A DNA stretch of 64,000 bases, taken from Dehalococcoidia bacterium. Lineage in GTDB: Bacteria; Chloroflexota; Dehalococcoidia; CAUJGQ01. The translations under genes were made by a program, and so were the position numbers. The notes below the pieces were generated by a model that worked only from the letters and a program-made list of their open reading frames with translations, did no database searches and had not been told where the DNA came from. The stretch spans positions 1 to 64,000 of the forward strand of contig DATGEL010000015.1 in the NCBI GenBank assembly GCA_035310145.1, given 5' to 3'. Below, piece after piece: positions 4,757 to 64,000 of the stretch (positions are counted from its first letter, which is position 1; each line of letters starts with the position of its first letter).

Positions 4757-6610
4757 CTACAGCGCCGCCTTCACCCGCTCGGCCACGGCGCGGGTGATGC
4801 CGGGCGTGCCGCTGAGGTCGTCCACGCTGGCCTCGCGGATGCCGCGCACGGAGCCGAACTTCTTGATCAGCGCCTGCTTGCGCGTGGGGCCGATGCCGGG
4901 GATCTCGTCCAGCGCCGACTTGATGCTCGTCTTCTGCCGCACCTGGCGGTGGAAGGTGATGGCGAAGCGGTGCGCCTCGTCGCGGATGCGCTGCACGAGA
5001 TAGAGCGCCTGCGAGGTGCGTGGCAGGATCGCCGGCTCGCTCGCGTCGGAGACGAACAGCTCCTCGTTCTCCTTCGCCAGGCCCGCCGCCGGCACGTCGC
5101 CCAGGCCCAGGTCGCGCAGCACGTCCAGCGCCGCGCCCAGCTGCGGCTTGCCGCCGTCGATCAGCAGCAGGTCGGGCAGCTCCGCCCATTTGGCGTTCTC
5201 GGCCGCGGCCTCGTCATTGTCTTTGGCCTCGCGCGCGGCCACGGCCCGCTTGAAGCGGCGGCGCAGGACTTCGGCCATGCTCTCCACGTCGTTGTTGCCG
5301 TCGCCGTGCTTAATCTTGAAGCGGCGGTACTCGCTGGACCGCGGGTGGCCGTCGATGAAAACGACCATGCTCGCGACCTGGTTCGTGCCCTGCGTGTGCG
5401 AGATGTCGTAGCATTCGATGCGGCGCGGCGCTTTGGGCAGGTCCAGCTCGTCGCGCAGCTCGTCCAGCGCCGCGCCGGTCTTGCCCTTGTCCGCCAGCCA
5501 CTTCACGCGCAGCATCTCCAGCGTCTCGCGCGCGTTCTCGTTGGCGAGGTCCACGAGCTGCTTCTTCTCGCCCCGCTGCGGCGCCGCGACGCTCACCTTC
5601 TTGCCGCGCTTCTCACTCAGCCAGTCCTCGATCAACGCCCGGTCCGCCGGCTCGACCGGCAGCAGGATCTCGGCGGGAATGTAGACGGCCGACTCATAAA
5701 ACTGCTGCAGGAAGCTCTGCAGCACCGATGCGTCGCGCTCCTCGCGCGTGCCCTGCAGCTCGAAGTGGTCGCGGCCGATCACCTTCGTGCCGCGCACGAA
5801 GAAGACCTGCACGCAGGCCTCGTCGTCGGCGCGGGTGATGCCGAACACGTCCCAGTCCACGGGCTTCGTCGTCGCCATTTGCTGGCGTTCCATCACCCGC
5901 TGCACGGCCTTGATCTGGTCGCGGTACATCGCCGCGCGCTCGTAGTCGTACTCCTCGGACGCTTCCTCCATCTTGCCGGAGAGCTCGTCCACGACTTCTT
6001 GGGTGCGCCCTTCGAGGAACTTGATCACCTGCTGGATCACCGCGTCGTACTCCTCTTTGGTGCAGTACGAGGTGCAGGGCGCGATGCAGCGGTGGATGTA
6101 GTAGTCGAGGCAGGGGCGCGGGTCGACGCCGGTGATCGTCTTGGTACACGACCGCCAGGGGAAGAGCTTTTTGACCAGGTCGAGCGTGAGCCGCACGGAG
6201 CCGGCGCTGGCGTACGGCCCGAAGTAGCGCGAGCCGTCGTTCTCGACCTTGCGCGTGATGTAGACGCGCGGCCACGGATCCTGCAGGTCAACCTTGAGAT
6301 AGGGGTAGTGCTTGTCGTCCTTGAGGCGAATGTTGAAGAAGGGCTGGTGCTTCTTCACCAGCGTCGATTCGAGGATCAACGCCTCCTGCTCGCTGCGGCA
6401 GAGAATGTACTCGAAGTCGGCGATCTGCTTGACCAGCCGCCGCGTCTTCGCCTCCAGGCTGCGCGGTGAGCCGAAATAGGAGCGCACGCGGTCCTTCAGC
6501 CGCGTGGCCTTGCCGACGTAGATCACCTCGCCGGCGTCGTTCTTCATGATGTAGACGCCCGGCTTGGCCGGCAGCGCCTTGAGTTGGTCTGCGAACTTGC
6601 TGATTGGCAT
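4757..6610 (-). CDS. uvrC: UvrABC excinuclease subunit C
   Basis: 617-residue nucleotide-excision-repair nuclease that cuts both sides of a UvrB-bound lesion. The N-terminal GIY-YIG domain (about 14-93) shows PGVYIMKNDAGEVIYVGKA. A UvrB-binding UVR motif lies near 205-240 (MEEASEEYDYERAAMYRDQI). The C-terminal RNase H-like nuclease is near 380-540, including IECYDISHTQGT and LLIDGGKPQL. A helix-hairpin-helix ends the protein (IPGIGPTRKQALIKKFGS). Length is normal. The ATG at 6610 has no ribosome-binding site and lies 8 nt after a TATACT -10 box, so the mRNA is probably leaderless. A LexA-type box overlaps the -35 region. Confidence 0.95.
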   Translation of the reverse strand: MPISKFADQLKALPAKPGVYIMKNDAGEVIYVGKATRLKDRVRSYFGSPRSLEAKTRRLVKQIADFEYILCRSEQEALILESTLVKKHQPFFNIRLKDDKHYPYLKVDLQDPWPRVYITRKVENDGSRYFGPYASAGSVRLTLDLVKKLFPWRSCTKTITGVDPRPCLDYYIHRCIAPCTSYCTKEEYDAVIQQVIKFLEGRTQEVVDELSGKMEEASEEYDYERAAMYRDQIKAVQRVMERQQMATTKPVDWDVFGITRADDEACVQVFFVRGTKVIGRDHFELQGTREERDASVLQSFLQQFYESAVYIPAEILLPVEPADRALIEDWLSEKRGKKVSVAAPQRGEKKQLVDLANENARETLEMLRVKWLADKGKTGAALDELRDELDLPKAPRRIECYDISHTQGTNQVASMVVFIDGHPRSSEYRRFKIKHGDGNNDVESMAEVLRRRFKRAVAAREAKDNDEAAAENAKWAELPDLLLIDGGKPQLGAALDVLRDLGLGDVPAAGLAKENEELFVSDASEPAILPRTSQALYLVQRIRDEAHRFAITFHRQVRQKTSIKSALDEIPGIGPTRKQALIKKFGSVRGIREASVDDLSGTPGITRAVAERVKAAL

Positions 6611-13090: not shown

Positions 13091-13179
13091 CTCCCTCGCT
13101 CCCCCGTCCCCACTTTCCCTAACCCAATCTGGAGGAGATCCGCGGCTGTTCAAGCGCGTATGGGAGAGAGGGGCGATCC
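13091..13179. repeat. CTCTCCC palindromic repeat, copy 2
   Basis: An internal GGAGATCCGCGGCTGTTC segment followed by GCGTATGGGAGAG links this copy to the subfamily that clusters around the DUF559 gene at 61.4-62.7 kb. The left arm is degraded (CCCGTCCCCACTTTCCC). Nothing else is visible between 13080 and 13310. Confidence 0.6.
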
Positions 13180-13310: not shown

Positions 13311-13402
13311 GATCGCCCCTCTCCCTCTCTCGATGTACCATCGCGTTCCACGCGATATACACGATTGGGAGAGGGAGAGGGGTCGGGGGTGAGGGTGAGG
13401 GC
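13311..13402. repeat. CTCTCCC palindromic repeat, copy 3
   Basis: GATCGCCCCTCTCCCTCTC pairs with GGGAGAGGGAGAGGGG around a loop that holds a smaller palindrome (ATCGCG / CGCGAT). It ends with the family tail GGGTGAGGGC. It lies just past the 3' end of the permease gene. Confidence 0.7.
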
Positions 13403-16186: not shown

Positions 16187-18463
16187 ATGACGACGACGGC
16201 TGGTGAGGCAGATGCCACGGAGGAGTTCTTGACCTCCGAGACCCCGCAGCAGGAGCCGTATGTGCCGGCGATGCACCAGGCCGTGCGCCTGCTCGCCCTG
16301 CACGAGCTGGCGCTGGACGCCGGCCTGGCGCACTCCACGTCAGAGCTGGGCGAACGCATCGTCGAGGCCGCGCTGCGCATCAGCGAGGGCGAAAGCGCCT
16401 CAGTCTATCTCTGGGACTCGGGTGAGGGCCTGCTGCGCGCCGTGGCCCACGGCGGCGAAGCGACGCCGCCGCCGCCGGAACGCGTGCAGCCGGGGCAGGG
16501 CATCACCGGCACGGTCTGGCAGCTCGGCTCGCCGCTGATGGTGGATGTCTTCGACGGTGGCGACGCCAGCGGCCGGACGGGCCTGCGCGCCACGCTCGGC
16601 GCGCCGCTGGAGGCGGGCACGCAGAAGCTCGGCGTCGTGATCGTGCGCCGCTACGCGCCGGGCGCCGCCTTCTCCGCCGAAGACACGCGCCTGCTCAGCC
16701 TGCTGGCGGCGCAGGCCGGCCACCTGCTGGCGCGCCGCTCGGCTGAGGAGGGGGTGCGCGCCAGCGAAGCGCGCTTCCGCGCCCTGGTGGACCGCAGCTC
16801 CGACATCATCCTCGTGCTCGACCCGATCGGCACGATCACCTTCCTCAGCCCCGCCGCCGAGCGCAGCATCGGCTACCCCGCTGAGCGCCTGCTCGGCAGC
16901 AGCATCTTCGAAACGATCGCCCGTGAGGACGCCGAGCGGCTGCACAGCGCCCTCGACGAGGTTTCCGCCACGCCGGGGCACCAGCGCACGGTCGAGTATC
17001 GTCAGCAGTCTGGCGACGGCGCCTGGAGGTATATCGAGGCGATCCTGCGCAACTCGCTGGACGATGCCCACGTGGACGGGATTATCGTCACCGCGCGCGA
17101 CATCACGGCGCGCAAGCAGGCCGAGGAGCTGTTGCAGCACCAGGCGCTGCACGACGCGCTCACCGGCCTGCCCAACCGCATCCTGCTGCAAGACCGCCTG
17201 CAGCACGCCATCCGCCTCGCCTATCGGCAGCGCTCGCCGCTGGCCCTGCTCTTCCTCGACCTGGACCAGTTCAAAGAGGTGAACGACCGCTTCGGCCACC
17301 ATGCCGGCGACCAGCTCTTGCAGCAGGCCGCGCCGCGGCTGCAAAGCGCCCTGCGCGACTCGGACACGCTGGCGCGGCTGGGCGGCGATGAGTTCGCCGT
17401 GGTGCTGCCCGGCGCCCGCAACCCCGAGGCCGAGATCGTGGCGCAAAAGATCGTGCGCGCCTTCGAGCAGCCCTTCGTGATCGACGGCCGCCACCTCACC
17501 ATGCACGTGAGCACCGGCATCGCCCTCTTCCCCGACCACGGCGCCGATGCCGAGACGCTGGTACGCCACGCCGACCTGGCGATGTACGCCGCCAAGCGCA
17601 GCGGCAGCGACACCGCCCGCTTCGGCGAGCCGCAGGCCGCGGAAGACCCGAACCGGCTGGCGCTGCTCTCCGAGCTGCGTCGCGCCCTGGCCCAGCGCTG
17701 GCTGCTGCTGCACTATCAGCCCGTGGTCGAGCTGCCCTCGGGCCGCATCGTGCGCGCCGAGGCGCTGGCGCGCTGGCAGCACCCGGAGCGCGGCCTGCTG
17801 ATGCCCGACCAGTTCATCCCGCTGGCCGAGCAGGCGGGGCTGATCGCGCCGCTGACACGCTGGGTGCTGGCCACGGCATTGCGCCAGTGCCGCGCCTGGC
17901 GGCTGGAGGGACTGGAGCTGGGCGTCACGGTCAACCTCTCGCCCAAGCTCGGCTACAACTCGCTGCTCTCCGACACGCTCACCACGCTGCTCTCACACCT
18001 CGAAGTCGATCCGGGCTGGCTCACCTTCGGCATCACGGACAGCGGCGTGGCCGAAGACCTGCGCCGCGCCGTGGCCATGCTGCAGCAGCTCGACGCGGCG
18101 GGTGTGCGCCTCTCCGTCGAGGGCTTCGGCTCCAGCCAGTTCACACAGCCGCACCTGGCCCAGCTTGGCGTGGACGAGATCAAGATCGACCGGGCGACGG
18201 TCGGCCGCATGGTTGAAGACCCGCCCGCGCACGCCGTCGTGCGCTCCGTGATCGAGCTGGCGCACAACGCCGGCCTGGTGGTGGTGGCCGAGGGCGTGGA
18301 GAACCAGGAGACCTGGGACGCGCTGGTGGCGCTGGGCTGCGACGCGGCGCAGGGCTTCTTCGTCGGCCGGCCGATGCCCGCCGGCATGCTGGCCGCCCGT
18401 ATGCACGAGCAGCTGCGAACTCATAGGGAACAGGGAACAGGGAACAGGGAACAGGGGGCGTAG
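16187..18463 (+). CDS. GAF-PAS-GGDEF-EAL signalling protein
   Basis: 758-residue soluble c-di-GMP enzyme. GAF lies at about 30-185 and PAS at about 195-315 (FRALVDRSSDIILVLD). The GGDEF domain near 330-490 has intact RLGGDEF (about 397) and an upstream RDSD that fits the inhibitory RxxD site. The EAL domain near 505-745 keeps EALARW, KIDR, VAEGVEN and QGFFVGRP but has EGFG where active enzymes have DDFG, and ITDSG in place of ELTES. So cyclase activity is likely and phosphodiesterase activity doubtful. The last dozen residues (REQGTGNREQGA) are encoded by a heptad repeat and are probably not functional. Confidence 0.88.
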   Translation: MTTTAGEADATEEFLTSETPQQEPYVPAMHQAVRLLALHELALDAGLAHSTSELGERIVEAALRISEGESASVYLWDSGEGLLRAVAHGGEATPPPPERVQPGQGITGTVWQLGSPLMVDVFDGGDASGRTGLRATLGAPLEAGTQKLGVVIVRRYAPGAAFSAEDTRLLSLLAAQAGHLLARRSAEEGVRASEARFRALVDRSSDIILVLDPIGTITFLSPAAERSIGYPAERLLGSSIFETIAREDAERLHSALDEVSATPGHQRTVEYRQQSGDGAWRYIEAILRNSLDDAHVDGIIVTARDITARKQAEELLQHQALHDALTGLPNRILLQDRLQHAIRLAYRQRSPLALLFLDLDQFKEVNDRFGHHAGDQLLQQAAPRLQSALRDSDTLARLGGDEFAVVLPGARNPEAEIVAQKIVRAFEQPFVIDGRHLTMHVSTGIALFPDHGADAETLVRHADLAMYAAKRSGSDTARFGEPQAAEDPNRLALLSELRRALAQRWLLLHYQPVVELPSGRIVRAEALARWQHPERGLLMPDQFIPLAEQAGLIAPLTRWVLATALRQCRAWRLEGLELGVTVNLSPKLGYNSLLSDTLTTLLSHLEVDPGWLTFGITDSGVAEDLRRAVAMLQQLDAAGVRLSVEGFGSSQFTQPHLAQLGVDEIKIDRATVGRMVEDPPAHAVVRSVIELAHNAGLVVVAEGVENQETWDALVALGCDAAQGFFVGRPMPAGMLAARMHEQLRTHREQGTGNREQGA

Positions 18464-18590
18464 GGACGCCGGGACGAGGAAATAGAGCACAGAAAATAGG
18501 AACGAGGGACGAGGCCACCGCACCCCTATTTCCTATTTCCTCGTTCCTATTTCCTCGTTCCTGATTCCTCGTCCCTCGTCCCTATTCCCT
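18423..18590. repeat. Heptad/hexad low-complexity repeat between convergent genes
   Basis: The left half is purine-rich (tandem GGGAACA units, then AGGAACGAGGGACGAGG). The right half is pyrimidine-rich (CCTATTTCCTCGTTCC units), so the whole is a loose inverted repeat. Both convergent genes read into it, which adds repetitive C-terminal tails to each protein. Confidence 0.7.
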
Positions 18591-23750: not shown

Positions 23751-23774
23751 GCGGCAGCCTCCGGCGGTGCGTAG

Positions 23775-23865
23775 GTAACAGGTAACAGGTGACAGGTGAC
23801 AGGTGACAGGGTACAGGTGACAGGAAACAGGGAACAGGGCGTAGGGCGTAGAGCGTAGAGCGTAG
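23775..23865. repeat. Tandem 7-bp repeat, 13 units
   Basis: Thirteen consecutive heptads drift from GTAACAG through GTGACAG and GGAACAG to AGCGTAG. They occupy the short region between divergent genes (the B3/B4 protein and tag), about 50 bp before tag. They are similar to the short tandem heptads known from cyanobacteria. Confidence 0.85.
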
Positions 23866-24508: not shown

Positions 24509-24590
24509 GCCCTCTATCCCCCGTCCCCTTTCCCCCAATCTCTGACATCGCGCGGGGAGCGCTTTGGGATGAGGGAAAGGGGCGATCGGG
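24509..24590. repeat. CTCTCCC palindromic repeat, copy 4
   Basis: Degenerate copy: CCCCGTCCCCTTTCCCCCAATC against GGGATGAGGGAAAGGGGCGATC, ending in the family tail GGGCGATCGGGCGGAGCAC, which recurs at 32510. Confidence 0.55.
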
Positions 24591-24682: not shown

Positions 24683-24742
24683 CCCCTCTCCTTCTCCCAG
24701 TATTGGGAGAAGGAGAGGGGTAAGGGGGTGAGGATGAGGGCC
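24683..24742. repeat. CTCTCCC palindromic repeat, copy 5
   Basis: Perfect 17-bp stem CCCCTCTCCTTCTCCCA / TGGGAGAAGGAGAGGGG with loop GTAT, then the tail GGTGAGGATGAGGGC. It lies between tag and the convergent alcohol dehydrogenase gene and could act as a bidirectional terminator. Confidence 0.8.
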
Positions 24743-29368: not shown

Positions 29369-29520
29369 GGTTGTGCGCCTCCCGCCGGACGGGGCGCCGG
29401 AGCGCCCCGAGGTGTTACCACATTACAGCGGAGACGCACGTATGTTCTGAATTCTTACGTCGAGTAGAGGAAGGCGCCTGGGACGCCTGCGGGCGCGCGG
29501 GCGAGGCGCCCCGCCGCGGT

Positions 29521-29604
29521 TAACAGATGGTTTCAAAACCGGCGGGCACGTGCGATCGCATCTCTGCAAGCGGGAACCCGAGCCGGTTTTGAAACCATGT
29601 CTAA
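29521..29604. repeat. 84-bp palindromic element, intergenic copy
   Basis: Ends TAACAGATGGTTTCAAAACC and GGTTTTGAAACCATGTCTAA are long inverted repeats. It is about 88% identical to, and the same length as, the copy inside a universal stress protein gene at 47628-47711. The frame that is translated there is also open here. The rest of 29369-29684 shows no gene. Confidence 0.85.
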
Positions 29605-29684
29605 GGGAACCGCAGGCGCAGCACACCGACCGCGCCCACGCGGCACAACGATTGACATGGGAGTGGTTCGCGCTGGTGGCTCGC

Positions 29685-32527: not shown

Positions 32528-32589
32528 GCAGCACGACGCGGACGTCGTCGGGTTAACCGATAGCTGATTGGAACGCCCGACGCTCGATC

Positions 32590-32646
32590 GTCTCCTTCCC
32601 CCATCGTGCAACGAATGGGGGAAGGAGACGGGAGAGGTTGAGGGCC
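32590..32646. repeat. CTCTCCC palindromic repeat, copy 7
   Basis: GTCTCCTTCCCCCAT pairs perfectly with ATGGGGGAAGGAGAC. An inner CGT/ACG pair extends the stem, and the tail is GAGAGGTTGAGGGC. It sits about 30 bp upstream of the second glutamine synthetase start and would lie in its leader. Confidence 0.75.
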
Positions 32647-34038: not shown

Positions 34039-34105
34039 GCCCCTCTCCATCAACTCCATCAACTCCATCAACTCCATCAACTCCATCAAATGGAGAGGGG
34101 GAAGG
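34039..34105. repeat. CTCTCCC palindromic repeat, copy 8, with 9-bp tandem repeat in the loop
   Basis: CCCCTCTCCA and TGGAGAGGGG arms surround four full and one partial copies of CATCAACTC (34048-34089). The tandem array expands what is a 3-40 nt loop in other copies. Confidence 0.75.
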
Positions 34106-35079: not shown

Positions 35080-35160
35080 AGGATAGAGGAACCAGAAAAT
35101 AGCAACGAAGAAGACGCACTATTTCCTATTTTCTACGTCCTATTTCCTCGTTCCTCGCCC
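35080..35160. repeat. Purine/pyrimidine low-complexity inverted repeat
   Basis: A purine-rich half (GGAAATAGGATAGAGGAACC and similar) is followed by a pyrimidine-rich half (TATTTCCTATTTTCTACGTCC...). This is the same architecture as at 18423-18590. It fills the gap between the lactonase stop and the SDR leader. Confidence 0.6.
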
Positions 35161-35162
35161 GC

Positions 35163-36110
35163 CTAATACGCCCCCTGCTGCTCGAAGATGCGGCGCGGAT
35201 TGTCGACCAGCATCTGCGAGATCTGCGCCTCGCTCACGCCCTGCGCCCGCAGCGCCGGCAGCACATCGTCAGGGATGTGGTTATAGTGCCAGTTCGGCCA
35301 CTGCCTGCGCACCGTCTCGGCGTCGCGCGCGTCGGAGAAGCAGCTCGCGTCATGCGAGAGCACCATCTTGCCGGCGTAGCCCTCTTTGCAGAGCGCCGCG
35401 ATGGTGGCCACGCGCCGGTCGGTCGGCAGCAGGCGGTCGATGCCGAAGCGGTCCATGCCGATGGAACTGCCGCGGTCCATCAGCCGCTTGAGATAGCCGA
35501 GGTCCTCCGAGTCGCCGCTGTGGCCGATGATCACGCGCGAGAGATCGACGCCTTCGGAGGCGAAGATGTCCTGCTGCACGGTGCCCATCTCGCCGGCGGC
35601 GTAGGTGTGCGTGGAGATCGGCACGCCGGTGCGGCGGTGGGCACGGGCCGAGGCGCGCAGGATCTTCTCGATCGGCGGCGTGGCGCCCTCGGTGTCGGTC
35701 GCGCACTTGATGATGCCGCAGCGGATGTTCGTGCCCGCCGTGCCGCGCTCGATATCCTGCACGAACAGGTCCGCGATCGCGTCAACCTCGCGGCTGTGAA
35801 AGTAGCGCTGCGGCTGCCACCAGATCCCCGTGGCCACGATCACGTTCACGCCGGCGCCGGCGGCGATCTCGCGCACGAAGGCCACGTCGCGGCCCAGGTC
35901 CACGGTGGTCAGGTCCACCAGCGTGTCGATGCCGCGGCGCTGCACGTCCTGCAGCTTCACGATCGCCTGCTGCTTCACCGTCTCACGGTCCCAGAGACCG
36001 GGCCAGTTCTCGATGACGCCCGGCGAGAGGGTGATGATGTGCTCGTGCATCAGCACGCGGCCGAGCTTGCCGGTGTCGATCGGGCCGGTCACCGCCTGGA
36101 TCGTCGCCAT
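35163..36110 (-). CDS. Phosphotriesterase-like lactonase (amidohydrolase family)
   Basis: 315 residues. The metal site is recognisable: HxH in RVLMHEHIITL, the Lys that is carboxylated in CGIIKCATD, His in ISTHTYAAGEMG and VIIGHSGDSEDL, and Asp in VLSHDASCF. These are shared by phosphotriesterases and quorum-quenching lactonases. Length is normal and all metal ligands are present, so an active hydrolase of lactones or phosphotriesters is likely. ATG 36110 has GGAGGAGACGGC upstream. It is divergent from a Fur-family gene. Confidence 0.88.
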   Translation of the reverse strand: MATIQAVTGPIDTGKLGRVLMHEHIITLSPGVIENWPGLWDRETVKQQAIVKLQDVQRRGIDTLVDLTTVDLGRDVAFVREIAAGAGVNVIVATGIWWQPQRYFHSREVDAIADLFVQDIERGTAGTNIRCGIIKCATDTEGATPPIEKILRASARAHRRTGVPISTHTYAAGEMGTVQQDIFASEGVDLSRVIIGHSGDSEDLGYLKRLMDRGSSIGMDRFGIDRLLPTDRRVATIAALCKEGYAGKMVLSHDASCFSDARDAETVRRQWPNWHYNHIPDDVLPALRAQGVSEAQISQMLVDNPRRIFEQQGAY

Positions 36111-47092: not shown

Positions 47093-48133
47093 TCAGGACG
47101 TCGCGCGGGCGGAATGGAGCGCGCGTCCATTCGTGTCGGACGAGTCGGTAGCCGGTGGCGTGACCGCCCCTTGCGGCACGATCAGGGTGGGCAGCCCGGC
47201 GGCGATCAGGTCAAAGGCGACGCTGCCCCGCAGCGTTCGGCTCAGCCCGGTTCGGCCGTGCGAGGCGATCACAGCCAGGTCAACGCCGGCGGCGCGAGCC
47301 AGCGCGATCAGCTCGGCGCCCGCCGCACCGTGCAGGACGAGGGACTCGACCGGCAGATTCGGCGGCAGCCCTGTGGCTTTGCCGCTGAGGTAGGTTTCGG
47401 CGCGCGCGGTCTGGCGGCGCTCGGTGGCCCCGGCGTCGGGCACGTGGCCATGGCCCGGCGTCCACGAGGCGTACTCCTGCACAACGCGGGCGAGCAGCAG
47501 GCGGGCGCCGAGCGCGCGGGCGAGCTCGGTCGCCGGCGCCAGCGCGGCTTCGGCCAGCGCGGTGCCGTCCAGGGGCACCAGGATGCGTTGGATGGAAGCC
47601 GGAGCCTGCCGCTCCCCACCGTCGTACTTAGACATGGTTTCAAAACCGGCTCGAGTTCCCGCTTGTAGGTGTGCGATCGCACCTGAACGCCGGTTTTGAA
47701 ACCATCTGTTAGCCAGCAGGACGGGGCGGTTGCCGCGGCTGGCCACATCATCCGCGACACTGCCGAGCGCCCAGCGGGCCAATTCGCCGCGGCCGTGCGT
47801 CGCCATCGCGATCAGCGACGCATTCAGCGCCGTGGCCGCCCCCTGGATCTCGCCGGCCGGATCGCCCCACATCAGCGCGGTGGCGACTTGCAGCCCGTCC
47901 TCGCGCAGGCGCCGTTCGCTGCGGATCAGGTACTGCTCCAGCGCCTGGCGCCGCTGCTGCGCGGCCGCCTCGCGATCGCCGTCGCTCGTGGGCGCAAGCC
48001 GCGGATCGGCCTCGACGACGGCGAGCAGCACCAGCTTCTGGCCCGTGCCGCGCGCGATCGCCATTGCCAGGGGCAGCACCGCTTCGGCCACGCCGCTGCC
48101 ATCGAGACACACCAGGATCCGCTCCGCAACCAT
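47093..48133 (-). CDS. Tandem universal stress protein carrying an in-frame palindromic element
   Basis: 346 residues from ATG 48133. Two Usp domains: residues about 1-150 (RILVCLDGSGVAEAVLPLAMAIA, then MATHGRGELARWALGSVADDVASRG) and about 190-340 (RILVPLDGTALAEAALAPATELA, then ASHGRTGLSRTLRGSVAFDLIAAG). Both have the ATP-binding Gx2Gx9 pattern. Between them, 28 residues (NRWFQNRRSGAIAHLQAG...) are encoded by an 84-bp palindromic element that keeps the frame. The insert falls in the interdomain linker, so the protein may still fold. It is first in an operon with two kinases. Confidence 0.88.
   Translation of the reverse strand: MVAERILVCLDGSGVAEAVLPLAMAIARGTGQKLVLLAVVEADPRLAPTSDGDREAAAQQRRQALEQYLIRSERRLREDGLQVATALMWGDPAGEIQGAATALNASLIAMATHGRGELARWALGSVADDVASRGNRPVLLANRWFQNRRSGAIAHLQAGTRAGFETMSKYDGGERQAPASIQRILVPLDGTALAEAALAPATELARALGARLLLARVVQEYASWTPGHGHVPDAGATERRQTARAETYLSGKATGLPPNLPVESLVLHGAAGAELIALARAAGVDLAVIASHGRTGLSRTLRGSVAFDLIAAGLPTLIVPQGAVTPPATDSSDTNGRALHSARATS
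47628..47711. repeat. 84-bp palindromic element, copy inside a USP gene
   Basis: Same length and about 88% identical to 29521-29604, in the opposite orientation. The ends are long inverted repeats (GGTTTCAAAACCGGC / GCCGGTTTTGAAACC), flanked on both sides by TTA/TAA, which might be a 3-bp target duplication. It adds exactly 28 codons without a stop. Confidence 0.88.
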
Positions 48134-57469: not shown

Positions 57470-57916
57470 TCGGCCCTCACCCCCGGCCCCTCTCCCAATC
57501 CTGGGAGAGGGGGGACTCAGTGCCGCGCCTTCAAGCCCCACGCGTCCGTCCGAAGCTTCCCCTCCTCCTGGGAGAGGGGAGCTTCGGGCCGGAGCTGGGG
57601 AGGTTCTGCACCCCGCCTTCAGCCCCAAGCCTCCCGCGGTAGATCCCCCTCTCCTGGGAGAGGGGACTCTGCGCCGCGGCCGCGGTCTCGATCCGCCGTC
57701 CCGCGATCTCCGCTTCCCTTCCTGGGAGTGGGGGAGAGGGGGAGAGGGGAGACGCTGGGCGGCTTCGCCCTCAGCCCCACTCGTCCATCCACAGAGTCCC
57801 CTCCTTCCAGGAGAGCGGGACTCTGCGCCGTGCCTTCAGCCCTCATGCCCCGAAAGTAGCCCCCTTCCCTCCAGGATTGGGGGAAGGGGACGGGGGGTGG
57901 GGGCCGACGGCCTCGC
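57470..57916. repeat. Cluster of about six CTCTCCC-type hairpins inside the Tad operon
   Basis: Hairpins at about 57486-57513, 57551-57586, 57633-57667, 57711-57760, 57793-57824 and 57861-57890. Several share the flank GGACTCTGCGCCG...CCTTCAGCCC, so units have been duplicated locally. The best is CGAAGCTTCCCCTC / GAGGGGAGCTTCG. They lie between cpaE and tadA and may terminate, or process and stabilise, the transcript. Confidence 0.75.
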
Positions 57917-59158
57917 TCAGCCTCCCAGCGGCACCAGCCGGCGGATCAGGCCGTGCTTCTGACCGTTCGCGGACTTCGCCGCGGCGCCGCCGATCGATTC
58001 GGCCAGCTTGCGGATGTTGCCCGCGGCGCTCGAGTTGGGCCGCAGCGTCACCACCGGCTTGCCCACCTGCACGCTGCGCAGCACCGCCTCGTCGTGCGGC
58101 ACCGACCAGAAGACGCTCATGTCCAGCGTCTTGCCCACGTCCGCGGCCGAGACGCTGTTCACCCGGTTCGCGTGGTTGACCGTGAGCCGCAGCTTCTCCT
58201 CGGGGAAGGACCAGGAGCGCAGCATCTTCAGCACCAGGCCGGAGTTCTTGACGCTGGACATCTCCGGGCTGGTGATCAGCAGCACGATCGTGGCGAGGTC
58301 GAGCGCGGCGGCGATGATCTCGTTGAAGGCGCCGGGCGTGTCGAGAATCACGTAGTCGTGCGTTTGCGCCAGCAGCCGCACGATCTGCACGATCTGCGGC
58401 GGCGTAACCGCATCCCAGTCGGTCGGCTCGGTGGGCGCGGGCAGCAGGAAGACGCCCGATTCGTGCTTCGTCAGGTAGCGCTTGATCGAGCCGCGGTCGA
58501 GCTGCGCCGCGTCGCGCGCGGCGTCGGCCAGGCTGGTCTCGACTTTGGTATCCATCATGATCGCCACGTCGCCGAAGCGCTGGTCGAGATCGACGACGGC
58601 GACGGCGGCGTCCTGCGTCTTCGCCAGCGCCACGGCCAGATTCGTGGCGATCGTGGTCTTGCCCGTGCCGCCCTTGGCGCCGAAGACGGTGACGATCATG
58701 CCGGCGCCAGCGCCCTTCGCCTGGCCCGCGGCCGGCGTCTGGCTGGCGGCGCGCTCCAGGGCGCGGCCGATGCTCTCTATCGAGTCCTTGCCGGCGAGCG
58801 GAAAGCTCAGATAGTCGGCGGCGCCGGCCAGCATCGCCTGGCGCACGGAGGGGCCGTCGGCGATGGTCGAGTAGGCGATCACCGGCGTGGCCGGGAAGCT
58901 GGCGGCGACGGCCTCCAGCGTTTGCAGGCCGCGCGCGACCGGCGCTTCTAAAGAGAGCAGCACGCAGTCGGGGCGCGACTCGCCCACGAGCGTGTGGCCT
59001 TCGACGCCGTGGCCGCCCTCGGCTATGACGTTGACGCCCGCCATCGCCAGCACGCGGTGCGCCTCGGCGCGGTTCTCGGCGCTGGGGTCGAGGATGACGG
59101 CCTTCGGCGCTGTGCTCATCGAAGTGGTCTCCCGAGCCTGGCTGGCGCTGGTGCTCAT
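57917..59158 (-). CDS. cpaE: Tad pilus localisation ATPase CpaE/TadZ
   Basis: 413 residues. The N-terminal receiver-like domain is at about 18-125 (KAVILDPSAENRAEAHRVLAMAG, LLSLEAPVARGL; the phospho-acceptor Asp is not conserved). The MinD/ParA-like ATPase has deviant Walker A VFGAKGGTGKTTIATNLAVALA, VVDLDQRFGDVAIMM and ILDTPGAFNEI. It positions the pilus machine. ATG 59158 overlaps the cpaB stop by 4 bp. Confidence 0.9.
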   Translation of the reverse strand: MSTSASQARETTSMSTAPKAVILDPSAENRAEAHRVLAMAGVNVIAEGGHGVEGHTLVGESRPDCVLLSLEAPVARGLQTLEAVAASFPATPVIAYSTIADGPSVRQAMLAGAADYLSFPLAGKDSIESIGRALERAASQTPAAGQAKGAGAGMIVTVFGAKGGTGKTTIATNLAVALAKTQDAAVAVVDLDQRFGDVAIMMDTKVETSLADAARDAAQLDRGSIKRYLTKHESGVFLLPAPTEPTDWDAVTPPQIVQIVRLLAQTHDYVILDTPGAFNEIIAAALDLATIVLLITSPEMSSVKNSGLVLKMLRSWSFPEEKLRLTVNHANRVNSVSAADVGKTLDMSVFWSVPHDEAVLRSVQVGKPVVTLRPNSSAAGNIRKLAESIGGAAAKSANGQKHGLIRRLVPLGG

Positions 59159-60021
59159 TGCGTGGCCCCGCCGGGCTGCGTCTGGCCGGGCTGCGCCTGG
59201 CTGTTGCCGCCGCCGCCGATCGCGGGCAGGGTGTTGGGCACGGGGTTGAGCTGCGGCGCGTCGTGCTCGCCCAGCTTGTGCAGTGAGAGGCGCAGCGTGC
59301 CCATCTGGTCGGCCAAAAACAGCTTCTGCGCGTCGTCCGGCGTGACGGCGAGGGTGACACTCTTGGCGTCGGGCTGGGCCTTGGTGCTGGTCTTGCTGCT
59401 CACGCCGTCGTCGCTGCGCTGCGCCACGGCCAGCACCTTGACGTCGGTGAGCACGGTGACGGCGGCAAAGTGCTTGACCGTGCCGCCGGCATCCTTGGCA
59501 AACGAAGCGCCGTTGGCAGCCGCGCCGCCCTGGACCTCGAAGACGCCGACCACGTCGACCTCATCGCCGGGCTCGATCAGGCCGCCGTTGGTGACGACCT
59601 CGGCCACGGTGATCGAGGCGGCGCGCATGCCCGCCGGCACCTGGGCGGCGAAGTCGAGATCGCGCACCGAGGCGGCGACACGGTCGCTGAGCACCTGCTC
59701 GCCGGCGTTGACCTGCACGCGCGCGACCTGGCCGACGGCGGCCTTCGTATCGGTGAAGGCGCTGCCCAGGCGCACGCCCTTCGGCACCTGCTTCACGTCC
59801 AGCATGCCGGCGGTGATCGTGGTGCGGGCGGGGATGTCCTGCTTCGCCACGACGACGGGCACGGTGTTGACCTGCACCGTCTTCGCCTGGGTGGAGGCGA
59901 GCAGCCGCCAGAGCAGCAGCGCCGCCAGCAGGCCGAGCACCAGCGAGATCAGCAGGATACGCCGGTTGCTGCCCGACGAGGCGATGGCGGCGGGATCGCG
60001 CGGGGTCCAGGTGACGGCCAT
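59155..60021 (-). CDS. cpaB: Tad pilus protein CpaB/RcpC
   Basis: 288 residues. A single N-terminal membrane helix (ILLISLVLGLLAALLLWRLLA), an SAF domain (VVVAKQDIPARTTITAGMLDVKQVPKG) and the RcpC/CpaB domain (DVVGVFEVQGGAAANG, VLAVAQRSDDG, VTLAVTPDDAQKLFLADQMGTLRLSLH). A Gln/Gly-rich tail follows. In diderms it works near the secretin; no secretin gene is visible here. ATG 60021 lies 9 bp after the tadE stop. Confidence 0.88.
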   Translation of the reverse strand: MAVTWTPRDPAAIASSGSNRRILLISLVLGLLAALLLWRLLASTQAKTVQVNTVPVVVAKQDIPARTTITAGMLDVKQVPKGVRLGSAFTDTKAAVGQVARVQVNAGEQVLSDRVAASVRDLDFAAQVPAGMRAASITVAEVVTNGGLIEPGDEVDVVGVFEVQGGAAANGASFAKDAGGTVKHFAAVTVLTDVKVLAVAQRSDDGVSSKTSTKAQPDAKSVTLAVTPDDAQKLFLADQMGTLRLSLHKLGEHDAPQLNPVPNTLPAIGGGGNSQAQPGQTQPGGATQ

Positions 60022-60030
60022 GGTCAGACC

Positions 60031-60507
60031 TCACTCGATGCGCATGGTGGCGGAGTTGTTGATCGTGAACGTGGACGGAATCGAGCCGCCCGAAATGAAG
60101 TTGGCGATGGCCGCGAGCGGCGTGATGAATGAAAAACTGTAGCTCGATGTCACGACCACAGATTGGCCGCTCGAACAGCTCGCGCTACAGGTTGGATTTG
60201 GAACGGTCAGGCTCCCAGTGTTGTATGGGCCAGCAGCGTTTTGAACCTTCGCAATGATGCCTGCGGTGTCAGTAGGATTGGTGATGCCGTAGCGAGCACC
60301 TTCACGGACTGCGTTAGTCAGGGTGATTGACGTTGAGTAGGCTCGACCGAAGTCAATCATTCCGAAGATGAGTAACAGAAATGTTGGTACTATAAGAGCG
60401 AATTCAACGAGTGCAACGCCAGATTGATCGGAGCGGTTACGAAGTGAAAATCGACCATCATTACAGCGAGGCTGAAGGAACCACCGAGAATAGCGATGCT
60501 TCATCAT
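60031..60507 (-). CDS. tadE: TadE-like minor pseudopilin
   Basis: 158 residues from the ATG pair at about 60507. The TadE signature is SGVALVEFALIVPTFLLLIFGMIDFGRAYSTSI followed by LTNAVREGARYG. The remainder is exported, with CSASC near residue 110. Base composition is notably lower in GC than most of the window. The ribosome site is weak, so the exact start is uncertain. It is adjacent to cpaB (9 bp) and follows the pilin genes. Confidence 0.82.
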   Translation of the reverse strand: MMKHRYSRWFLQPRCNDGRFSLRNRSDQSGVALVEFALIVPTFLLLIFGMIDFGRAYSTSITLTNAVREGARYGITNPTDTAGIIAKVQNAAGPYNTGSLTVPNPTCSASCSSGQSVVVTSSYSFSFITPLAAIANFISGGSIPSTFTINNSATMRIE

Positions 60508-60615
60508 CACCGACTCAGTCCATGAACACTGGATAGTTGGCAAGGCGGCGTCTTCGAAGTTGACTCTGACAAGCAGAGACCATGACCGAAGACGCCGCCC
60601 AGTCCGCGCACTAGG

Positions 60616-60807
60616 CTATGCGCCAGCCAAGGTGCCGCCTATGCTCGTGAAGATACCGTTGATTCCTCCGCTCAGGATCCCTAGAGCTCCTATTGCGGCG
60701 ATCGCGACAAAGGCGAGGATGAGCGCGTATTCGACTAATCCCTGCCCATGTTGCTGCCTGCGAAGGTGGTAGACGAGCTCACTCACGACAGTGATCAGGG
60801 AACGCAT
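60616..60807 (-). CDS. flp: Flp/Fap-type pilin 1
   Basis: 63 residues from ATG 60807 (GGAG 7 nt upstream). The short leader ends QQHGQG, then LVEYALILAFVAIAAIGAL with the conserved Glu-Tyr of Flp pilins. The cleavage site is expected after Gly in HGQG or shortly before. It ends GINGIFTSIGGTLAGA. It is the major shaft protein candidate together with the second copy. No prepilin peptidase gene is in the window. Confidence 0.9.
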   Translation of the reverse strand: MRSLITVVSELVYHLRRQQHGQGLVEYALILAFVAIAAIGALGILSGGINGIFTSIGGTLAGA

Positions 60808-60833
60808 GGTGAACTCCGTCGGCATCAACGCAC

Positions 60834-61025
60834 TTAGGCTCCCGCCAGGGTGCCGCCGATGCTCGTGAACACACCGTTGATGTCCCCACTTAGAATCCCA
60901 AGGGCTGCAATGGCGGTGATGGACACCAGCGCGATGATGAGCGCATACTCAACCAGCCCCTGCCCTTCCTCGCGGGTCTGCAGGCGGTTAACCAGCTCGT
61001 TCACGAGGGTGATTGCGTACTGCAT
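60834..61025 (-). CDS. flp: Flp/Fap-type pilin 2
   Basis: 63 residues, about 65% identical to the other pilin: EEGQGLVEYALIIALVSITAIAALGILSGDINGVFTSIGGTLAGA. It is the first gene of the Tad cluster. ATG 61025 has GGAG about 12 nt upstream. The two pilins share an identical C-terminal 12 residues, suggesting recent duplication or conversion. Confidence 0.9.
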   Translation of the reverse strand: MQYAITLVNELVNRLQTREEGQGLVEYALIIALVSITAIAALGILSGDINGVFTSIGGTLAGA

Positions 61026-61436
61026 TTTCAGTTGTGCTCCTGTTGATGATGATGTCTCGGCAGATTGGGTGGCGCGGCTGTCGCGCGTGGCTTCGTTGCT
61101 CCCGTCCCGACCTCCTCGTCCTCGGCCGCCGGATTGGCGCGTGCCGGCTGCTCTCCCTCGACAGTGGCCCGGCGGCGCTGCCGCCGTTTGCGGCCCGTCT
61201 CGCGCCGCCGGCCGCGCGGGTGGCGCAACGCGGTGGGTGGGAGGCGGGCCTGGCCGTGTCGAGGGCGGCGCCGCGGCGCCAGGGCGGCGGCCGCGTCCGG
61301 GTGCGGGCGGGAAGTCCGTCGCAGTCGGAACCTCCCTCGACCAGCCGCAGTGTATGGGGCGCAGTCTGGCCTTGCGGTTTCCTAACCATTGGCAAGTTAT
61401 GCGGATGCGGGCGGAAAGGTGGGGATTCTGTAAAGC
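61026..61436. other. GC-rich leader region upstream of the pilin genes
   Basis: About 410 bp with no gene I can support. It would contain the Tad operon promoter, but no clear -35/-10 pair is visible. Confidence 0.4.
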
Positions 61437-61527
61437 GGCCCTCACAACCCCCGACCCCTTCTCTCCCATACACAGCGGCTTGGAGATCCGCGGCTGTTCA
61501 CGAGCGTATGGGAGAGAAGGGGCGAGC
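61437..61527. repeat. CTCTCCC palindromic repeat, copy 9 (DUF559 subfamily)
   Basis: CCCCTTCTCTCCCATAC and GTATGGGAGAGAAGGGG arms around a GGAGATCCGCGGCTGTTC core, close to the two 93-bp copies that flank the DUF559 gene and to copy 2 at 13.1 kb. Confidence 0.8.
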
Positions 61528-61717
61528 CATGGGAGGTGGGCGAGGCGGCGCGGCGCTAACCGAAGGAAAGCGCCGCGGCGACGAGCGCACGCCCATGGCC
61601 GCTCCGCGGGCATCCTCAACCACCGCGTTGTTCGCGCCAACGGCGCGACAATCGGGGCGCGAGATTCCCTGCCGCGCCGCCCGAGAACCGGCGGTCACGA
61701 TGCCAGGGTAAATCTCG

Positions 61718-61866
61718 CTAAGGCGTGTCCGACAATTGGCTCAGCCTCAGCAAAGTGCGTGATTTGCTGGTCTCTCAATCAGTTCGTCAGGCGTGAGAGC
61801 AGCCGGTCGGGATGGCCAACTACTGTAACTTATTGCGGCTGGATGATTTATCGGACACGCCCTAAC
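61718..61866. mobile_element. Short non-autonomous IS5-like element (MITE)
   Basis: About 149 bp with terminal inverted repeats AAGGCGTGTCCGACAA and TTATCGGACACGCC. It is flanked by CTA on both sides, a likely 3-bp target duplication. The interior encodes only a short remnant (LTPDELIERPANHAL) that could derive from a transposase N-terminus. The ends resemble those of IS5-group elements. Confidence 0.65.
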
Positions 61867-61890
61867 CCGAAACCATCTGCACCTGCACCG

Positions 61891-61983
61891 CACGATCGCC
61901 CCTTCTCTCCCATACGCTCTTGATCCGTAGCGGATCTCCAGCAGATTGTGTATGGGAGAGAAGGGGAAGGGGGTTATGAGGGC
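61891..61983 (-). repeat. 93-bp repeat, left inverted copy flanking DUF559
   Basis: Identical, in reverse complement, to 62430-62522 over all 93 bp. It contains CCCCTTCTCTCCCATAC / GTATGGGAGAGAAGGGG arms. Its right end (AAGGGGAAGGGGGTTATGAG) supplies the ribosome-binding site and ATG of the DUF559 gene. Confidence 0.95.
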
Positions 61984-62365
61984 AGAGCGCCGCTTCCGTG
62001 CCGTCGGCCCCGCCGTACGCGAGGCCGCCCGCACCTTTCGCCAGCAGCCGACACCCGCCGAAGCGCTGCTCTGGGAGCGGCTGCGCGACCGGCGGCTCGG
62101 CGGGCTCAAGTTCCGGCGCCAGCACGCCGTGCTGGGCTTCGTGCTCGACTTCTACTGCCCGGAACGCCGGCTGGCGATCGAGGTGGACGGCGCCGTGCAC
62201 GCCGCGCCGGAGCAGCGCGCCCGCGACGCCGAGCGCAGCAAGCAGCTTGCCGCCGCCGGCGTGCGCGTCCTGCGCCTGGACAACGCCGAAGTTCTGAACA
62301 ACACCGGCGCGGCGCTGGCGACGATCGCGCGCGCCGCCGCGGCGCACGGGGCACGCGGGGGCTGA
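61976..62365 (+). CDS. DUF559 (Vsr-like) endonuclease-domain protein
   Basis: 129 residues. DUF559 core: ARTFRQQPTPAEALLWERLRDRRLGGLKFRRQHAVLGFVLDFYCPERRLAIEVDGAVH, with catalytic Asp in LDFYCP and Glu in IEVDG as in Vsr-like PD-(D/E)xK nucleases. AGVRVLRLDNAEVLNN then closes the domain. The ATG at 61976 and its AGGGGG site lie inside the left 93-bp repeat. The gene plus repeats form a compact unit. By analogy with REP-associated transposases, the nuclease might act on the repeat hairpins. That is inference. Confidence 0.85.
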   Translation: MRAERRFRAVGPAVREAARTFRQQPTPAEALLWERLRDRRLGGLKFRRQHAVLGFVLDFYCPERRLAIEVDGAVHAAPEQRARDAERSKQLAAAGVRVLRLDNAEVLNNTGAALATIARAAAAHGARGG

Positions 62366-62429
62366 AGGCGCGGCGGACGGTGCGGGCATGCCGGGCGATT
62401 CGACGCGCTGACGACGCTCGCCCGCGGGG

Positions 62430-62522
62430 GCCCTCATAACCCCCTTCCCCTTCTCTCCCATACACAATCTGCTGGAGATCCGCTACGGATCAAGAGCGTA
62501 TGGGAGAGAAGGGGCGATCGTG
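62430..62522 (+). repeat. 93-bp repeat, right inverted copy flanking DUF559
   Basis: A perfect inverted copy of 61891-61983, starting 64 bp after the DUF559 stop. The outward end is GGGGCGATCGTG; similarity fades after one mismatch beyond it. Confidence 0.95.
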
Positions 62523-62645
62523 GGGTGCTGGCTCGGGCAGTATTGGGCTCCCAGACTCCGGCAGCTCGTGAGCGGCCTGTCGCGGCCGCAGGCGCGATAA
62601 ACAGCGCTCCGGGCAACCGCATGCCGCCCTGGATCGCTTCACGCC

Positions 62646-62738
62646 GGATCGCCCCTTCTCTCCCATACACACGAGGCCTTGAGACCGCGAGGGGGTTGAG
62701 GGCGGTATGGGAGAGAAGGGGAAGGGGGTTATGAGGGC
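62646..62738 (-). repeat. CTCTCCC palindromic repeat, copy 12 (DUF559 subfamily)
   Basis: The same arms as the 93-bp copies and the same AGGGGGTTATGAGGGC end, but the core between the arms differs (ACGAGGCCTTGAGACCGCG). Its ATG-bearing end faces the response regulator gene and opens no real gene. Confidence 0.85.
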
Positions 62739-62744
62739 CGCAGG

Positions 62745-63587
62745 CTATGAGGGCCTCGCCTCGCGTTCGCCCACGGCGCTGAGGTCCGGGCGCGCGGGGA
62801 TGCGGGCGCGGGTGTCGCGCATCGCCCGCGCCAGCTCGCCGCCGTTAGCCGCGATCATCGAGCGCACCGGCAGCGCCGCCTCGGCCAGCTCCTCCGGCGA
62901 CTCGCGACGGAAGGAGTAGCCCACGCCGTAGACCGTGTGGATCAGCGTCACGCCGTTGCGGCCGTCCTCCAGCTTGCGGCGCAGGTTCAGCACATGGCCG
63001 CGCAGCAGCCCCGCGTCGGCCGGGTCGTCGTAGCCCCAGACGCGGTCCACCAGCGTCTGGTAAGGCAACACCTGGCCGGCGTGCACCATCAGCTCCTGCA
63101 GCAGCTTGAACTCGGTGACGGTGAGACGCAGCGGCTGGCCGGCGCGCGTCACCGAGTGCGAGCGCGTATCCAGCACCAGGTCGCCGGAGCTGAGCGCCTG
63201 CCAGCCGGCGACGGCGGCGCCGCCCACGCGCTGCACGCGGCGCAACACGGCGCGCACGCGCGCCAGCAGCAGGTTGAAGCTGAACGGCTTGGTGATGTAG
63301 TCGTCGGCGCCCAGCTCCAGCGCCTGCGCGATCGTCTTCTCGGCATTGAGCGCGGAGAGCACGATCACCGGCGTCGAGCCGTCGCGGCAGACCTGCTTGC
63401 AGACCTCCCAACCGCTGACGCGCGGCACTTCCAGGTCGAGCAAAAGCAGCTCCGGCCCCTTGGTCTGCCACAGCTTGAGCGCGGCGTTGCCGTCGTAGGC
63501 CGGAATCACGTCCAGGCCGCCGCGGCGGAAGGTATAACAGATCAAGTCGATCAGGTCCGCATCGGTGTCGACAACCAGGATCGCCAT
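62745..63587 (-). CDS. OmpR-family response regulator
   Basis: 280 residues. The receiver has ILVVDTDADLI (one of the usual paired acids is Thr), Asp in LLLLDLEVPRVSG, Ser in VIVLSALNAEK and Lys in DDYITKPFS. The winged helix is LTVTEFKLLQELMVHAGQVLPYQTLVDRVWGYD, ending TLIHTVYGVGYSF. A 50-residue tail follows the wing, longer than usual. No kinase is adjacent. The promoter region (63600-63760) is AT-richer than the rest of the window. Confidence 0.9.
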   Translation of the reverse strand: MAILVVDTDADLIDLICYTFRRGGLDVIPAYDGNAALKLWQTKGPELLLLDLEVPRVSGWEVCKQVCRDGSTPVIVLSALNAEKTIAQALELGADDYITKPFSFNLLLARVRAVLRRVQRVGGAAVAGWQALSSGDLVLDTRSHSVTRAGQPLRLTVTEFKLLQELMVHAGQVLPYQTLVDRVWGYDDPADAGLLRGHVLNLRRKLEDGRNGVTLIHTVYGVGYSFRRESPEELAEAALPVRSMIAANGGELARAMRDTRARIPARPDLSAVGEREARPS

Positions 63588-63938
63588 GCTGCCACTCCCC
63601 CGCGCCCTGGGGCGGTCCGCCCGGCCCTGCTGAAAAATTAGGGAAGTTCCCTATTGCGTCCGCGACAATCGCGGGCGTCGCCTGGCATAACGAAACAATA
63701 CAGCAACTGTTGCGTCGGAATTCTATAGTTTCGAATAGCAGATTTATGTCGAATTGTGCCGGGTCGAGCGCCGCTGCGCCTGGCCGGCGAGATTTGAACA
63801 GGATTCGGTCCGCTTGCGGCCCGGCGTCCTCCCCCGCCGCGTGCCCGAGCGCGGCCACCCGAACGCAACCGACATGTACAGCTCGTCGCAGCATGCTGCC
63901 GGAGATCAATCACGATGGATGCCATGCCTCCGCAGCGT
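63588..63938. other. Intergenic region upstream of the response regulator
   Basis: 350 bp without a gene. An AT-rich stretch at about 63655-63760, unusual for this window, probably holds the leftward promoter. Confidence 0.4.
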
Positions 63939-64000
63939 TCAGTACACGTGCGGCAGCAGGCGCCAGCGCACCCGCGCCGCGTAGGCCGCATAGGCCGGGT
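63939..64000 (-). CDS. C-terminal fragment, isoprenylcysteine-methyltransferase-like
   Basis: Only the last 20 codons are in the window: PAYAAYAARVRWRLLPHVY then stop. The pattern of Tyr-Ala repeats followed by RWRLLP resembles the end of ICMT/phospholipid-methyltransferase-like membrane enzymes. The rest lies beyond the right edge. Confidence 0.4.
   Translation of the reverse strand, partial: PAYAAYAARVRWRLLPHVY

Follow-up and report, generated by a model that had tools for sequence, protein, structure and literature searches.

Self-comparison of the window (the whole 64,000-nucleotide stretch analyzed here, part of a Dehalococcoidia draft genome of 5.32 Mb) revealed two 93-bp arms that are exact reverse complements of each other and bracket an intact DUF559 gene, as the original prediction had stated (Table 1). 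The match extends, imperfectly, to 102 nt at 98%, and chance is excluded as the origin of this arm pair. The left arm ends in AAGGGGAAGGGGGTTATGAGGGC and holds both Shine-Dalgarno-like AAGGGG runs and the ATG that opens the 129-codon reading frame, in agreement with the proposal that ribosome-binding site and start codon lie inside the repeat. Each arm is itself palindromic, as had likewise been proposed, and consists of a hairpin, CCCCTTCTCTCCCATAC, with a stem of 17 to 19 bp and a loop of 30 to 36 nt, plus a one-sided purine-rich tail directed toward the gene. No target-site duplication was seen at the window locus, and positions 58000 to 64000 gave no Rfam match to a structured RNA or intron. 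A known defense system was considered and rejected, as PADLOC returned weak matches only, the best being DpdF and a homing-endonuclease profile. Among the best matches in other genomes, relatives of the neighboring response regulator are 41 to 46% identical, and hence there is no syntenic allele to compare with the window locus. Besides, a MITE-like stretch of about 140 bp with the ends AAGGCGTGTCCGACAA and TTATCGGACACGCCCTAA adjoins the DUF559 element (positions 61718 to 61865).

Table 1. Palindromic units and the DUF559 gene in the window
Feature	Position	Strand	Remarks
Diverged copy of window-type unit	13101..13173	.	77% complementary to 61900-61972
Unit	13316..13382	+	16-bp stem; tail GGGGGTGAGGG; third-strand score 9/9
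Unit	24525..24582	-	13-bp stem; tail on left
Unit	24683..24720	+	17-bp stem; 4-nt loop; outer GATCG; third-strand score 9/9
Unit	32589..32630	+	16-bp stem; third-strand score 8
Unit	34040..34100	-	11-bp stem; third-strand score 9
BoxC-like unit CCCCTCTCCCAATCCTGGGAGAGGGG, tail CCCTCACCCCC	57487..57512	-	Type framing the genome's second DUF559 gene (L002)
Unit	57861..57889	+	Third-strand score 7
Window-family unit	61437..61525	-	Hairpin 61455-61522; tail left, away from gene; 84% complementary to left arm
Left 93-bp arm	61891..61983	+	Outer CGATCG end; hairpin 61899-61966; purine tail 61967-61983 toward gene
DUF559 gene, 129 aa, predicted Vsr/EDxHD-type nuclease	61976..62365	+	Pfam match, alignment, AlphaFold model
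Right 93-bp arm	62430..62522	-	Tail 62430-62446 toward gene; hairpin 62447-62514; outer CGATCG
Window-family unit	62646..62740	+	Hairpin 62652-62721; tail GGGGGTTATGAGGGCC right, away from gene

Related copies had been claimed to lie across the window, and we found them in two forms. The exact 17-mer palindrome occurs eight times and belongs to four units, arranged as tail-left, tail-right, gene, tail-left, tail-right. About nine further, diverged units have other stems but often share the outer CGATCG and the inner GGGGG..GAGGG end. With up to one mismatch allowed, the 17-mer palindrome had 25 matches in the genome, compared with 0 for a reversed control pattern, and alignment of the matches defined about 16 window-type units of approximately 95 bp each with sharp ends (GATCGCCCC...GTTATGAGGGCC). 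A whole-genome search detected three intact DUF559 genes and one remnant. All three intact genes are framed by inverted palindromes, each of its own type: CCCCTTCTCTCCCATAC in the window, CCCCCTCTCCCAGGATTGGGAGAGGGGG at the second gene, and CCCCCTCTCCATGG..CCATGGAGAGGGGG at the third (L003), where the tails are directed away from the gene. The window also contains a different palindromic repeat, present as 88-nt inverted copies that are 90% alike (29518 to 29605 and 47627 to 47714; ends TAACAGATGGTTTCAAAACCGGC and GCCGGTTTTGAAACCATGTCTAAG), and heptanucleotide-like repeat arrays (GGGAACA, CTCGTTCCTATTTC) at 18410 to 18590, 23758 to 23853, and 35119 to 35169.

DUF559 is a very widespread family of unknown role. 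The protein of the window matches the Pfam DUF559 profile over residues 15 to 119 (E = 7e-31), and its AlphaFold model (pLDDT 86) resembles the structures of NGO0050 (PDB 3hrl; Z 15.0), I-Bth0305I (3r3p; Z 11.8, rmsd 2.7 over 95 residues; Foldseek E 1e-4), Vsr (1cw0; Z 9.3, rmsd 2.7 over 101 residues), and, weakly, TnsA of Tn7 (Z 5.8). A weak similarity to I-Bth0305I was also found at the sequence level (E = 2e-4). The window protein retains E29, D58, E69, D71, H75, D84, and R87, residues that do not vary among 65 homologues. The model thus suggests a single-domain endonuclease of the Vsr/EDxHD type, with catalysis predicted from the fold. NGO0050 of Neisseria gonorrhoeae belongs to the same family; no functional study of it was found in the literature, and a gonococcal DUF559 locus (L224) carries one unit upstream. 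Vsr shares the fold, but the window sequence scores 15.9 bits against the NCBIfam Vsr profile TIGR00632, under the cut-off of 97.85, and it sits in an element context, not one of mismatch repair. I-Bth0305I, an EDxHD homing endonuclease, shares the catalytic-domain fold, whereas the DUF559 protein is a single 129-aa domain that lacks the long DNA-binding part, lies outside introns, and is framed by complete palindromes.

BoxC is a common repeat known since the 1990s. Judged by their architecture, the window repeats are members of the known BoxC/PIT/triplex-motif class rather than a new family. Both consist of a hairpin, CCCTCTCCC-GGGAGAGGG, followed by a third strand, GGGTGAGGG (for example, CCCTCTCCC..GGGAGAGGG-TTA-GGGTGAGGG), and both are scattered between genes singly or in inverted pairs. 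The tail mirrors the purine arm at at least 6/9 in 88 of 140 gene-side tails, compared with 4 of 140 on the outer side; the window arms reach a third-strand score of 7/9 and other units of the window up to 9/9. The published definition (ITxF) requires a loop of 1 to 6 nt, which most units of other loci match with 3 to 6 nt, while the window arms have 30 to 36 nt. BoxC, the PIT element, and the intrastrand triplex motif (TM) of Escherichia coli are one and the same (Hoyne et al. 2000; Holder et al. 2015, PMC4666352), and the E. coli motif forms a triplex in vitro (PMC4666352). The latter paper describes no connection between the motif and mobile elements, and its text gave no match to the word "nuclease". 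Our literature search found no mobilizer of, or gene associated with, BoxC/PIT repeats, and none of the listed titles and abstracts of papers mentioning DUF559 concerns repeats. The DUF559 gene of E. coli K-12, ycjD, adjoins such a repeat: a BoxC unit lies close on its 3' side, with a remnant overlapping the gene end, and none was found on the 5' side.

The idea that DUF559 genes elsewhere would be flanked by inverted palindromes was well supported by two sets of loci, namely, 41 PF04480 loci of the same class, for which repeats were not a selection criterion, and 80 loci from many phyla, which were picked by protein similarity alone and, owing to the search pattern, over-represent a single DUF559 subfamily (KFRRQQPIG). 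Inverted repeats with a score of at least 14 flanked the gene at 26 of the 41 class loci (99th percentile of shifted windows, 13.5) and at 62 of the 80 many-phyla loci, as opposed to 23 of 2,495 shifted windows. A separate unit finder placed units on both sides of the gene at 65 of the 78 scorable many-phyla loci and at 27/41 class loci, compared with 2 of 447 control positions. Of the tails in the many-phyla set, 120 point toward the gene and 12 away from it. Bacteria of over a dozen phyla show this partnership of gene and repeat. It is not universal, as implied by a hand-picked set from the families f61 and f14, in which 6 of 21 loci were framed.

In a midpoint-rooted tree of 157 DUF559 proteins, 111 were framed on both sides, 28 on one side, and 18 on neither, and framed genes lie on either side of the root. 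Unframed proteins are concentrated in two groups, a clade of ten rows from f61 and the intein-borne copies, both of which mostly have no units, and unusual AATCACTCCCCCC units are confined to one protein clade. Inward-facing unit pairs 300 to 700 bp apart enclosed DUF559 in 35 of 35 cases, a biased figure as the loci had been chosen for DUF559. We also started from the repeats and searched 400 genomes for inward-facing tails (GGGTGAGGG-N345..375-CCCTCACCC). Among the 14 places found, six had hairpins on both sides; two of these six enclose DUF559, and the remaining four held no recognized gene. A third DUF559 place has the hairpin on one side. Within this small sample, the share of DUF559 is far above chance for any single gene family. 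A Vsr-like DUF559 nuclease framed by inverted, dispersed palindromes is a recurrent, specific, and widespread architecture.

Co-occurrence of gene and repeat was analyzed in 301 Chloroflexota genomes with a strict hairpin-plus-tail pattern, which gave thousands of matches, whereas its reversed form gave a few dozen. The repeat was present in 90 of 98 genomes with a strong DUF559 match and in 69 of the 203 others (odds ratio 22, P = 3e-23). The association persisted in a within-family permutation (P = 0.0002), by which alone kinship was handled. Abundant repeats in genomes lacking the gene had been named as an observation that would speak against the original prediction, and the 69 genomes agree with this in part, yet nearly all genomes with the gene carry the repeat. 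Three genomes without a DUF559 match (G146, G227, and G214) have 80 to 180 repeat units each, which may be relics or the product of another mobilizer. For Y1_Tnp, the RAYT family, the odds ratio with the repeats was 1.3 (P = 0.35), and its coefficient fell near zero once DUF559 entered the model.

The similarity of the units tracks that of the DUF559 proteins (Mantel r = 0.36 for the many-phyla set and 0.56 for all loci; P = 0.001), almost unchanged in a partial Mantel test on G+C content (r = 0.35 and 0.56, respectively; P = 0.001). Unit and protein sequences diverge together. Since co-divergence is expected from linked inheritance alone, we take it as evidence of a long partnership rather than of recognition.

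Sites at which the element is present in one genome and missing from a relative had been suggested as a check, and two such sites were found in the genus g57. Upstream of an HDAC-family gene, one genome (G093) has the unit-DUF559-unit block; G233, with no DUF559 match, has a solo unit that follows a conserved terminator and agrees with the block in place and orientation; and G287 has no unit. Downstream of the gene, G301 has the unit-DUF559-unit block, G287 a solo hairpin, and G093 and G233 nothing. This alternation fits insertion next to a unit and, equally, decay of the block to a solo unit. In six genomes of the family f61, metH contains an in-frame DUF559 block bounded by units at both ends. 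All these insertions occupy a single common position and belong to one protein clade, and a short linker devoid of BoxC palindromes is present in related metH genes. Other low-complexity in-frame inserts (e.g., CCAATTACCAATTACC) occur in the metH linker of G133, G170, G109, and G117, so that the site seems to be generally tolerant.

Three further comparisons concern more distant bacteria. The ycjD block with its BoxC unit (L213, 5164 to 5839, between fabI and sapF) is present in about 3,334 of 5,426 E. coli genomes. We rejected the locus for a clean empty-site comparison: efflux-pump genes take the place of the block in O157:H7, Nissle, and ST131, and the difference between E. coli genomes is therefore not one of simple presence or absence. 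No empty allele was found in Azospirillum, in which the region is present in all close strains found. The only near-identical pair of recent copies comes from one Omnitrophota genome, in which two 502-bp copies that are 99.8% identical (L125 and L129, each at 5875 to 6376) lie on different contigs. Their flanks are unrelated, and one copy is bordered by a 9-bp target duplication, AGTTCAAAA. Their outer ends, GGTAGTGTCAAATAAGT...GCCAAAATTGGCAGAAC, recur in that genome without DUF559 and represent another MITE family, indicating that the gene travelled there as cargo.

The best reading of these sequence comparisons is that DUF559 moves the repeats. In our judgment, the locus is probably a small element, selfish or in part domesticated, in which a single nuclease gene is combined with two units that face inward and that the nuclease would spread. 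For cutting, unit recognition, and the chemistry of copying, we infer the following course. The DUF559 protein most likely recognizes its own unit, either in duplex form or, while the DNA is replicated, as a hairpin or triplex, and would nick or cut it; break repair or replication-coupled copying could then spread the whole unit-gene-unit block or single units. Solo BoxC-type repeats would be the non-autonomous copies and the targets of the nuclease. Because the left unit supplies the ribosome site and the start codon, gene and unit would travel as one piece. Counting against this explanation are the mostly unframed f61 clade and intein-borne copies, the low framing in the hand-picked set, the repeat-bearing genomes without a strong DUF559, the two of six repeat-first pairs, the missing target-site duplication at the window, and the apparent role of the Omnitrophota gene as a passenger.

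An alternative, which we regard as unlikely, is that DUF559 is a free-standing homing endonuclease of the EDxHD type that uses pre-existing BoxC repeats of other origin as its homing site; a solo unit elsewhere would be cut, and the gene would be copied in by gene conversion via the common unit. The best-characterized structural relative, I-Bth0305I, is a homing endonuclease, DUF559 occupies the endonuclease slot of intein-like inserts (L168 and L170), the sister species in g57 has a solo unit at the site and in the orientation of the block, and the metH insertions share one position and one protein clade. The flanks, however, are complete units facing each other rather than the halves of a split recognition site, and the empty metH sites have no palindrome. 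Besides, the repeats are statistically tied to the gene and diverge with it, neither of which an independent origin of the repeats would predict.

It is improbable that the palindromes serve as ordinary terminators, or as hot spots for illegitimate recombination, beside which DUF559 accumulates or which it uses for expression. Units can indeed supply a ribosome-binding site and start codon, a terminator function has been suggested for such palindromes in Enterobacter sp. 638 (PMC2869309), and in Omnitrophota the block moved inside another MITE. Nevertheless, hot spots would enclose many kinds of genes, whereas the sampled inward pairs of gene size enclose DUF559 only, and neither the fixed inward orientation nor the co-divergence would be expected. 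That RAYT (TnpA_REP) mobilizes the repeats as REP elements, with DUF559 being incidental, is highly improbable and was rejected for this phylum: although enterobacterial REPs are associated with and cleaved by TnpA_REP (PMC8266576), the repeats showed no association with Y1_Tnp in the 301 genomes, with or without DUF559, the window's genome had no match to Y1_Tnp (PF01797), and no GTAG lies beside the units.

The DUF559 element resembles the REPtron (RAYT/TnpA_REP with REP/REPIN), since both have a single nuclease gene framed by inverted palindromes and related palindromes dispersed singly or in alternating pairs. They differ in that RAYT is an HuH Y1-transposase, while DUF559 has a PD-(D/E)XK/Vsr-type fold, and in that a GTAG/CGTC tetranucleotide stands by the REP palindrome, whereas DUF559 units have CGATCG outside and GGGGG(TTAT/TG)AGGG inside. 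The third-strand (triplex) tail belongs to the DUF559 units, and DUF559 genes are often several per genome and sometimes lie in frame inside host genes. The original prediction of a REP/RAYT equivalent built on a Vsr/DUF559 nuclease stands insofar as the framing is specific, the repeats co-occur with the gene, and RAYT offers no explanation; it is weakened by the repeats in 69 of the 203 genomes without a strong DUF559. Taken with the co-divergence, the same-site alternation, and the fold, the idea of a REP/RAYT-like partnership with an unrelated nuclease is largely borne out, and there is a fair chance that the DUF559 system forms a class separate from REP/RAYT.

Our comparisons suggest the DUF559 family as the partner that BoxC has lacked so far, and perhaps also as the enzyme that spreads it. 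With a specific partner gene that spans phyla, the origin of BoxC/PIT becomes testable with one small protein and one DNA substrate. If the suggestion is true, the DUF559 family gains a function, and the REP-RAYT way of living in genomes arose again with an unrelated nuclease. More tentatively, DUF559 nucleases could be dedicated BoxC/PIT mobilizers throughout bacteria, independent of RAYTs and DDE transposases and acting on hairpin or triplex DNA, a generalization that we find plausible but would not yet expect to hold.

Finally, DUF559 was also observed at the place of the homing-endonuclease domain in intein-like inserts of an N6/N4 DNA methyltransferase (L166, L168, L170, and L065), where the Intein_splicing matches fall below the Pfam cut-off. 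In Chloroflexota, it further occurs in frame within long host open reading frames (L157 to L175, L066, and L067), and many of these hosts are DNA methyltransferase genes of various types (DUF1156, MmeI, Type ISP, Eco57I, and N6_N4_Mtase).
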